From contig CANREQ010000002.1 in the NCBI GenBank assembly GCA_947629695.1, positions 1 through 50,567 of the forward strand: DNA of 50,567 bases, read 5' to 3'. Both the position numbers and the translations under genes were made by a program. Origin of the DNA: an uncultured Clostridia bacterium. Lineage in GTDB: Bacteria; Bacillota; Clostridia; Christensenellales; Borkfalkiaceae. Under the pieces are notes generated by a model. That model did no database searches. It saw only the letters and a list, made by a program, of their open reading frames with translations, and had not been told where the DNA came from. Below, in pieces: positions 41,393 through 44,217 of the stretch; the stretch's first letter is position 1, and each line of letters starts with the position of its first letter.

Positions 41393-42607
41393 TCAAACCC
41401 TTTTAAAGCAAGCAAACTTATCGGCGTTTATTTTTTCTATTTTAAGCTCCACAGTCATTCCCGAATCGTCTACCTCGCGCGAAATCTCCGTGCAGTACCG
41501 CTTTAATTTTTCGTATTTATCCATGCAGGCGAATGGTATTTCGAACTTTGTAAACACATATCTTTCGCAAAAAGACTGCTTTATTTTTTCCTTGAGAAGG
41601 GACAACCCCGTGTTGTACTTTGCCGATATGGGCACGCAGTAATCGGGCAAATGCAAAGTGGTGGAGAGGCAGTCGCATTTATTCAAAACATAAATAACTT
41701 CTTTATCGAATCCGAGCTCGTCCAACGTCTGACGGGTCGTTTTAAATTGCATTTGGAAATCGCCCGTTGCGTCGGCTACAAACAATGCGAGGTCGCAATT
41801 AAGCGCGACTTCCAGCGTCGATTTGAACGCCTCGATTATGTTGTGCGGCAAGTCCTGAATAAATCCTACCGTATCTATAAGCAGATATTTTTCGCCGTCT
41901 ATTTCGAAATTTCTCGCAGTTGGATCCAATGTTACGAACAGCGCGTCGGCGGAGACGACATCCGAGCCCGTCAAAAGGTTCAAAAGCGTGGATTTTCCCG
42001 TATTCGTGTATCCGACAAGCGCGATAGTTTTGACGTTTGTCTTATATCTTCGCTCGGTTTGCAAGCTTCTGCGCTTTTTTGTTTCCTCAATCTTGCGCTC
42101 TAAAAATTTAATCCGATATGCAATGTGCCGCCTGTCGGTTTCGAGGCGCGTTTCACCGGGGCCGCGGGAGCCGATTCCTCCGCCAAGGCGGGAAAGCGCC
42201 GCGCCTTTGCCCTTTAAACGTGGATAAATGTACTTGAGCTGGGCAATTTCAACCTGAATTTTACCTTCGCTTGTAACCGCGTTTTTCGCGAAAATATCAA
42301 GAATGAGCGTCGTCCTGTCGATGACTTTTCTGTCGCCTAACGCGGCGGAAATGTTGAGCGTTTGGGAAGGGGAGAGCTCGCCGTTAAAAAGTATCGTTAT
42401 GTCGTCCAGCCCGTCGAGAGTTGCGGCAATTTCGTTGAGCTTCCCGGAACCTATAAAGGTTGCGGCGTTAATTTCTTTGATCGTCTGATAACTCGTGCCG
42501 ATATAGGTTGCGCCCGCGCTCTTGATGAGCGCCACTGCCTCATCATGCACGACGCGATAATTATCGTTTAAAATTGGTTGAATGACAAAAACTTTCTCTA
42601 TATTCAT
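41393..42607 (-). CDS. hflX: GTPase HflX
   Basis: GGGIGSRGPGETRLETDRRHIAYRI; ALVGYTNTGKSTLLNLLTG; DTVGFIQDLPHNIIEAFKSTLE; NKCD. Confidence 0.97.
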   Translation of the reverse strand: MNIEKVFVIQPILNDNYRVVHDEAVALIKSAGATYIGTSYQTIKEINAATFIGSGKLNEIAATLDGLDDITILFNGELSPSQTLNISAALGDRKVIDRTTLILDIFAKNAVTSEGKIQVEIAQLKYIYPRLKGKGAALSRLGGGIGSRGPGETRLETDRRHIAYRIKFLERKIEETKKRRSLQTERRYKTNVKTIALVGYTNTGKSTLLNLLTGSDVVSADALFVTLDPTARNFEIDGEKYLLIDTVGFIQDLPHNIIEAFKSTLEVALNCDLALFVADATGDFQMQFKTTRQTLDELGFDKEVIYVLNKCDCLSTTLHLPDYCVPISAKYNTGLSLLKEKIKQSFCERYVFTKFEIPFACMDKYEKLKRYCTEISREVDDSGMTVELKIEKINADKFACFKRV

Positions 42608-42612
42608 AAAAT

Positions 42613-43668
42613 TTATTCGTCGTCACGGTGCAATTTGACTTTCCCGACGACCGCTTTGCGCGTATCCTCGCTGATTGCCGCATAGTGTTTACGCGTTGTA
42701 TTTACGTCCTTATGCCCCAAAACGTCGGCCACAATATAAATATCACCCGTCGCCTTGTACAATTGGGTGCCGTATGTGCTCCTTAACTTGTGCGGGGAAA
42801 TTTTTTTGAGGGGAGAGACGATTTTTGCGTACTTATGTACCAAATTTTCAACGGCCCTGACAGTTATGCGCTTTTTTTGGGAAGAGAGGAAGAGGGCGCC
42901 GTCCCCGCTGTTATCAAGCTCGCTTTCTTCCTTATAATCGAGGTATCGCCTAAGAGCTTCCGCAACGTCGTTGTCGAAGTACAAAATGGATTTGCTTCCG
43001 CCCTTACGGGTAACTATAAAGGAATTATCCTTAAAATTTATATCGCTGTTATTCAATCCGACAAGCTCGCTTATACGTATTCCGGTGCCCAAAAACAGCG
43101 TAAGAATGGCGGAATCGCGAATTTTGCTCTTTTCGTGATAGGCGCGCTGGTGCGCAGTTAGCCCGTCGCCGCTCTCCGCCGTATCCAAAATGCCGTAAAC
43201 CTCGTCGCCGTCAAGGCGGATTATCGGCTTTTCGTGCAGTTTAGGGGTGGCAACCTTTGCGGAATTATCGACGGAGATTTGCCCTTTATTGAAAAAATAT
43301 TTAAAAAGTGCGCGAACGGAGGAGAGCTTTCTCGCTTTAGCCCGCTCGTTGCAAGAGTGGTACGAGCCGCAAAATTCATAGTGGGAGAGATACACCAAAA
43401 AATATTCAATATCGTTGTTGGTCACGCCTTCGAGGTCGAGCAATGTCAACTCTTTCGGGTTTTTTTTACCGCCCAAACGCTTGCGGCACAAAAAGTCGAA
43501 AAAAATCTTTAAATCGTGCGCATAATTCAAGCGGGTAAGGGTGCTCGTCTGGCTGTCTATAGCCATAAAATAATCGGCGCAGAAAGGAGGGAGATCTTCA
43601 TCGAGCAGGCGATTTATAACCTCGATATTTTTCAGATTGCGCTGGGCGTAATAATCGGAATTTTTCAT
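42613..43668 (-). CDS. Tyrosine recombinase (XerS/XerH-like, 351 aa)
   Basis: GTGIRISELVGLNNSDINF (catalytic R), TRKGGSKSI (K), PHKLRSTYGTQLY (HxxR), LGHKDVNTTRKHYA (H...Y). Confidence 0.93.
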   Translation of the reverse strand: MKNSDYYAQRNLKNIEVINRLLDEDLPPFCADYFMAIDSQTSTLTRLNYAHDLKIFFDFLCRKRLGGKKNPKELTLLDLEGVTNNDIEYFLVYLSHYEFCGSYHSCNERAKARKLSSVRALFKYFFNKGQISVDNSAKVATPKLHEKPIIRLDGDEVYGILDTAESGDGLTAHQRAYHEKSKIRDSAILTLFLGTGIRISELVGLNNSDINFKDNSFIVTRKGGSKSILYFDNDVAEALRRYLDYKEESELDNSGDGALFLSSQKKRITVRAVENLVHKYAKIVSPLKKISPHKLRSTYGTQLYKATGDIYIVADVLGHKDVNTTRKHYAAISEDTRKAVVGKVKLHRDDE

Positions 43669-43674
43669 GACTCT

Positions 43675-43703
43675 ATTTTATAATATATGAAGCAAAAAGT
43701 CAA
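43675..43703 (-). promoter_or_regulatory. Strong sigma-A promoter of the tyrosine recombinase
   Basis: Minus strand TTGACT-17 bp-TAAAAT; -10 ends 6 nt before ATG at 43668; no SD. Confidence 0.65.
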
Positions 43704-43706
43704 TAA

Positions 43707-43720
43707 TTTTACGAATAGTT
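43707..43720 (+). repeat. Isolated copy of the 14-bp arm TTTTACGAATAGTT
   Basis: Identical to the right arm at 43974-43987; with flanking AAA forms a perfect 17-bp inverted repeat with 43951-43967. Confidence 0.9.
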
Positions 43721-43953
43721 AAAGGGAGAGACAATTAAGCTTTACAACTTAAATGCGATTTTAAATCGGTAAAGTAAAACCGAAATTGAAATCACAAAAA
43801 AAATTATTGAGCAAAAAAATTTAATTTGAAAGGAAAATGAAATAGCACGCGTCATTTTGTATTTAAAATTAAAAAATCGGACGGTGGTACGGGCAAAAAT
43901 TTTATTTGATTGTCTTATTCTATTTTGGTGGGGTGGTATTCAAAAGTATATTT

Positions 43954-43987
43954 AACTATTCGTAAAACACAGCTTTTACGAATAGTT
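43954..43987. promoter_or_regulatory. Candidate tyrosine-recombinase core site (dif/lox-like perfect palindrome)
   Basis: AACTATTCGTAAAA-CACAGC-TTTTACGAATAGTT: perfect 14-bp arms and 6-bp centre, about 290 bp upstream of the recombinase start. Confidence 0.6.
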
Positions 43988-44175
43988 AGGGGTTAAATAA
44001 TGGGGTTTAAAGTAAATCCTGACGATTTAATTAAAATCGGCAATATAAATTATTTTGGAATTTACTTTGTTTTTGCGTTATTTTATTTAAATTATGCTTA
44101 AATTTCCTCATTTGCTTCAAATATCGCTATTTTGATAAAATAAGCTGATTTTATTAAATTTTAAAGATTTACAGC

Positions 44176-44217
44176 AAAAAACGGAGCTATTATGTCACGC
44201 ATAGTAGCCCCGTTTTA
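44176..44217 (-). terminator. (Bidirectional) terminator of glgP
   Basis: AAAACGGaGCTATTATG-tcacg-CATAGTAGCcCCGTTTT hairpin with A/T tracts on both sides. Confidence 0.8.

Follow-up and report, generated by a model that had tools for sequence, protein, structure and literature searches.

Resolution of chromosome dimers by a single recombinase has been described in streptococci and lactococci, in epsilon-proteobacteria, in Legionellales and in archaea. The 31-bp difSL site of streptococci and lactococci has a centre of 11 bp between arms that are unequal (PMC5357621). The difH site of Helicobacter and Campylobacter has a 6-bp centre and also unequal arms, an asymmetry that sets the order of cleavage (PMC5241119). 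In Legionellales the single recombinase XerL acts on a dif site with uninterrupted inverted arms of 10–12 bp, situated at the GC-skew maximum; this site is also used by an integrating element, and in Legionella xerL itself is found >400 kb from dif (PMC9765430). dif sites are usually marked by their position at the shift in GC skew (PMC3025954), and filamentous phages are known to use host Xer proteins at dif (PMC5666396; PMC5357621). In the literature, surveyed mainly through open papers, we found neither a clostridial single-Xer system nor a case of Xer autoregulation via a half-site.

The window analysed here is a stretch of 50 567 nucleotides from an uncultured Clostridia bacterium (assembly GCA_947629695.1, contig CANREQ010000002.1), in which a preliminary description had pointed out a 34-bp palindrome with a 6-bp asymmetric centre upstream of a lone Xer-type recombinase gene. 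The 34-mer is present at 43954–43987, letter for letter as first written; the perfect repeat is, in fact, one base longer on each side and its arms are 15 bp long (Table 1). On the gene strand the site reads TAACTATTCGTAAAA GCTGTG TTTTACGAATAGTTA, the centre being CACAGC on the plus strand. No other inverted repeat in the window has arms of at least 14 bp and a gap of 3–10. Since Markov-shuffled windows contained 0.025 repeats with arms of at least 12 bp per window, and none with arms of at least 14 bp in 40 trials, the palindrome is not a product of chance. The non-coding gap between the recombinase gene and the next gene is 565 bp long, with 284 bp separating the start codon from the near edge of the palindrome. 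A genome search for further copies of the 34-mer showed it to be unique in the 1.41-Mb draft, as should be the case for the palindromic site, ~30 bp long with a centre of 6–11 bp, of a single-recombinase Xer/dif system. We consider it highly probable that the palindrome is the chromosomal dif site of such a system, one that would resolve chromosome dimers.

Table 1. Positions of the features of the locus (window coordinates, unless a locus handle is given)
Feature	Position	Strand	Description
dif-like site	43953–43988	-	Arms 43953–43967 and 43974–43988, centre 43968–43973; conserved upstream of orthologues
Lone half-site	43707–43720	-	AACTATTCGTAAAA on gene strand; exact arm copy; proposed recombinase operator
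Predicted recombinase promoter	43675–43703	-	TTGACT-17-TAAAAT, consensus match 10/12
Xer-type tyrosine recombinase	42613–43668	-	351 aa; R198, K222, H293, R296, H319 and Y329 invariant in 28 orthologues
Replication-terminus signature	43953–44096	.	Maximum of the window's cumulative GC skew at 44096, 125 bp from site middle
Elements in dif site	L157:1955–9588, L158:4573–11563, L242/L034, L109, L037		Inovirus-like elements or their relatives; found in G075 and G061, and in partial or split form in G343, L109 and L037

Conservation of the palindrome upstream of orthologous recombinases, on which the earlier proposal depended, was observed: the same architecture accompanies orthologues with 47–87% identity and is present in most other families of the order. 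A core pattern that fixes the centre at 6 bp occurred in 145 of 166 recombinase loci; 121 of the 145 were distinct and carried 111 distinct 36-mers with 43 different centres. Looser searches revealed one clear own-genus exception to the 6-bp centre (L030, 9 bp), and some loci (e.g. L182, L190, L195 and L196) had no recognisable site within the available sequence. The median distance from site to recombinase start codon was 173 bp, the largest being 7.7 kb past an inserted element. Variable positions of the arms change in mirror image: we counted 1463 mirror-identical cells against a mean of 1301 and a maximum of 1340 in 1000 shuffles that ignored the relatedness of the loci. For example, TTCG/CGAA is replaced by TGCG/CGCA in other genera and by TTCGTTAAA/TTTAACGAA in another family. 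Arms that differ at one inner base were seen in ∼10 loci from sister genera; thus, for the group as a whole the arms are nearly, but not fully, symmetric. When 121 genomes of the family were scanned with a strict pattern, out of whose reach the site variants of other genera fall, 42 were positive, with exactly one site in 40 of them, which is not the behaviour of a dispersed repeat.

The catalytic roles of the six residues listed in Table 1, the same in all 28 orthologues, were assigned by motif. Among NCBIfam models XerS ranked first, with 193 bits against a cut-off of 267, while the XerC and XerD models gave 158 and 148 bits against cut-offs of 335 and 330; the recombinase is below the cut-off of every family it matched (XerS, XerC, XerA and XerD). 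The same models lead for all the 28 orthologues, the best XerS E-value among them being 4.9e-60. In a quick tree of the proteins of the order, true XerS hits and XerD, the three formed separate well-supported groups, with joins left uncertain by long branches. In this tree the recombinase belongs to a clade of its own. Confidence in the AlphaFold model was moderate (a mean pLDDT of 75, and values below 50 for residues 289–337), and in a fold search it retrieved Xer, lambda Int and Cre structures with TM-scores of ∼0.3–0.5; structure therefore adds little to what is known from sequence. An HflX-like GTPase gene (41393–42613, same strand) begins 5 bp past the recombinase stop codon, and a similar gene is located downstream of the recombinase in a relative (G061). 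Given the spacing, the common strand and the same order in the relative, the two genes may be co-transcribed.

With XerS/difSL the locus shares a single recombinase of ∼350 aa, a gene beside the site and a site at the terminus. Nevertheless, XerS identity was rejected: although XerS is the best-scoring model, the score is under its cut-off, the protein is in a separate clade, and a 6-bp centre between matching arms is not the architecture of difSL. XerC/XerD identity was rejected on the scores given above. With XerH/difH the locus has in common a single recombinase of similar size, a site near the gene and a 6-bp centre; however, the likeness of the proteins is weak (27 bits in phmmer), and the arms match here, whereas those of difH do not. 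As described, XerL/dif has in common with the locus a single recombinase, uninterrupted inverted arms, a position at the GC-skew maximum and use by an integrating element; gene and site are adjacent in our case, however, and the lineage is unrelated. The matching arms are closest to XerL sites, while the adjacency of gene and site is closest to XerS and XerH. The resemblance to XerS and XerH that had been suggested holds for the size of the protein and the gene-site layout. By the tests available, the system is likely to work in the manner of XerS/difSL, XerH/difH and XerL/dif, being neither XerS nor XerC/XerD and weakly similar to XerH.

Of 151 order genomes, 143 carried an orthologue of the recombinase, one per genome, and 77 of the 80 genera were represented among them; the search had no hit in the other eight. 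The orthologue search had no match in two family genomes that are 96–98% complete (G006 and G116), for which either an assembly gap or a true loss may be responsible. In a class-wide sample, with matches counted at E-values up to 1e-60, the XerD and XerC models matched 146 and 179 of 216 genomes, respectively, and none of the 11 genomes of the order that the sample contained. The window's own genome has two PF00589 hits, the recombinase and, where a contig begins, an integrase fragment of 188 aa; 16 family genomes with a completeness of at least 90% have no PF00589 protein other than the orthologue. The advised check for XerC/XerD pairs elsewhere thus returned none, leaving one Xer-type recombinase, as in a single-recombinase system; of 41 family genomes, 40 encode an FtsK-gamma domain, which is also expected in such a system. 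Candidatus Coproplasma, listed by NCBI under Clostridia, Eubacteriales incertae sedis, and Candidatus Gallimonas are named relatives; the GTDB names Borkfalkiaceae and Christensenellales would presumably suit the group. The preliminary description spoke of a poorly characterised Clostridia lineage; the system extends through an order rather than one obscure genome. Outside the order, related proteins are patchy in the class and several occur alongside XerD (e.g. G363, G377, G421, G482 and G547); such co-occurrence may represent a transitional state or a second role of the recombinase relative.

The site was located at the flip of GC skew in five genomes, three of them single-contig, at 125–1355 bp from the cumulative maximum. 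In a relative (G064) the maximum of cumulative skew across 400 kb is ∼315 bp from the site. In the single-contig genomes, which come from two further families (G248, G302 and G229), sampling along the genome placed the sign change at the site, with local maxima at 1355, 846 and 312 bp from it. Of the two roles first proposed for the palindrome, dimer resolution or integration, the former gains positional support from these data.

In such a role, copies of the recombinase would bind both near-identical arms. When a dimeric chromosome has formed, its two sites would meet at the terminus, four recombinase subunits would synapse them, and strand exchange within the 6-bp centre would produce two monomers. 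Alignment of the sites and the start of the reaction are probably the task of FtsK, which is present with its gamma domain. As the sole asymmetric part, the centre would give the site its direction.

Elements that occupy the site bear directly on whether recombination takes place there. Three relatives (G075, G061 and G343) carry an element exactly in the site, phage-like in two of them. In G075 and G061, ∼7 kb separate the site from the recombinase gene and hold small phage-type genes, coding for a Zot-type ATPase (PF05707, in G075), Rep proteins (PF01719 and PF01446) and HTH repressors. The Zot-type protein of G075 has 31–35% identity to gut inovirus records. The G343 element was inferred from two contigs that both break inside it, and a gene adjoining the site has 44% identity to a gene of the G075 element; L109 and L037 have incomplete, less well annotated elements of this type. 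At the G075 junctions CAAATTATTCGCAAAATCATTGTT is common to both ends, the gene-side copy being degenerate beyond it. In G061 and G343 one arm and a part of the centre are common to both ends, and the outer chromosomal halves mirror each other (ATCATTTCG with CGAAATGAT and TATCTATTCG with CGAATAGATA, respectively), so that the crossover fell within the centre and regenerated a good site at the far end. In draft assemblies G111 (C31/C32), G343, G342 and G345 a break separates dif from the gene of the recombinase, as would be expected from a high-copy or variable element in this position.

This pattern matches that of filamentous phages using host Xer at dif. Like CTXphi and XacF1, the elements are small, carry Zot-type and Rep genes, reside in dif and have one good and one degenerate element arm; the differences are that the hosts are Clostridia with one Xer enzyme instead of XerCD and that the Zot-type protein is distant from its nearest phage records. 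Insertions with a crossover in the centre are the strongest available evidence that recombination takes place at the site. The integration role proposed earlier is also true in a secondary sense, in that phage-like elements use the site, the main role being read as dimer resolution.

A third copy of the arm, at 43707–43720, had escaped the preliminary description. This lone half-site precedes the -35 box by 3 bp and the start codon of the recombinase by 38 bp. A half-site near the recombinase promoter was present in 47 of the 121 distinct loci, with TTGAC within 9 bp after it in 38, against a background expectation of ∼0.009 per 130 bp; where the full site is very near the gene, it is placed just downstream of the -10 box instead. 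This arrangement suggests autoregulation: by binding the half-site as well, the recombinase would probably control the expression of its own gene.

The same half-sites, and the close full sites just past the -10 box, would also be expected if the palindrome were a mere operator of an autoregulating recombinase-like protein, with no recombination there. We find this very unlikely, as the full site is often hundreds of bases away (173 bp at the median, kilobases past an element), marks the flip of GC skew and has elements recombined into its centre, and as the catalytic residues are invariant. Even less credence can be given to the palindrome serving as the point of attachment for a mobile element that brings its own integrase, or as an edge of an invertible segment (43707–43967). 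Elements do occupy the site in some relatives, and half-site and palindrome together form 17-bp inverted repeats 227 bp apart. However, a recombinase present once per genome in nearly all genera of the order, with the site beside its gene, does not resemble a mobile integrase, and the half-site is without a second arm and has a fixed orientation relative to the -35 box. That the palindrome is an RNA hairpin or a transcription terminator is barely credible: a consensus scan does call it terminator-like on the minus strand, and mirrored arm changes would fit a hairpin too, but the stem contains just three G-C pairs, the T tail is weak, a G+C-rich hairpin belonging to the neighbouring glgP gene lies closer to the end of that gene (∼44179–44217), the site goes with the recombinase and not with glgP (the far neighbour is the miaA/mutL region in G061 and the his operon in G345), an Rfam search of the region gave a chance-level match and no family, and a hairpin would neither mark the skew flip nor receive insertions. 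On these grounds the operator-only, invertible-segment and terminator readings were rejected.

Within the preferred reading of the palindrome as a dif site, a fuller picture seems to us somewhat better than an even bet: a distinct clade of single Xer enzymes, in an order without XerCD, would act on a near-symmetric dif, control its own expression through a half-site and provide a doorway for filamentous phages. As the arms are near-symmetric, the order of strand exchange would then be set by the 6-bp centre or by FtsK and not by arm asymmetry. A whole order of gut Clostridia would be added to the known single-recombinase systems, with an enzyme under all the NCBIfam cut-offs it matched. For genomes assembled in fragments from metagenomes the site is also an accurate marker of the terminus, and it is an entry point for small phages in these Clostridia hosts.

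Several minor observations concern arms and extra sites. A search for protein columns that track the T-to-G change in the arms pointed to residue 269: 19 of the 20 proteins whose sites have TGCG in both arms carry S there, and those with TTCG in both carry T or other residues; T269 is a possible specificity residue, with the association confounded by phylogeny. In two genomes the site pattern was matched a second time, with unrelated centres, among ordinary genes at a great distance from the recombinase gene (L159:1992–2015 in G061:C37 and L160:5998–6021 in G102:C113); these matches may be hairpins, remnants of dif or contamination. In one genus, upstream of the good site there is another dif-like palindrome, which is degenerate and has a centre of 7 bp (L150, at -270; L151, at -251).
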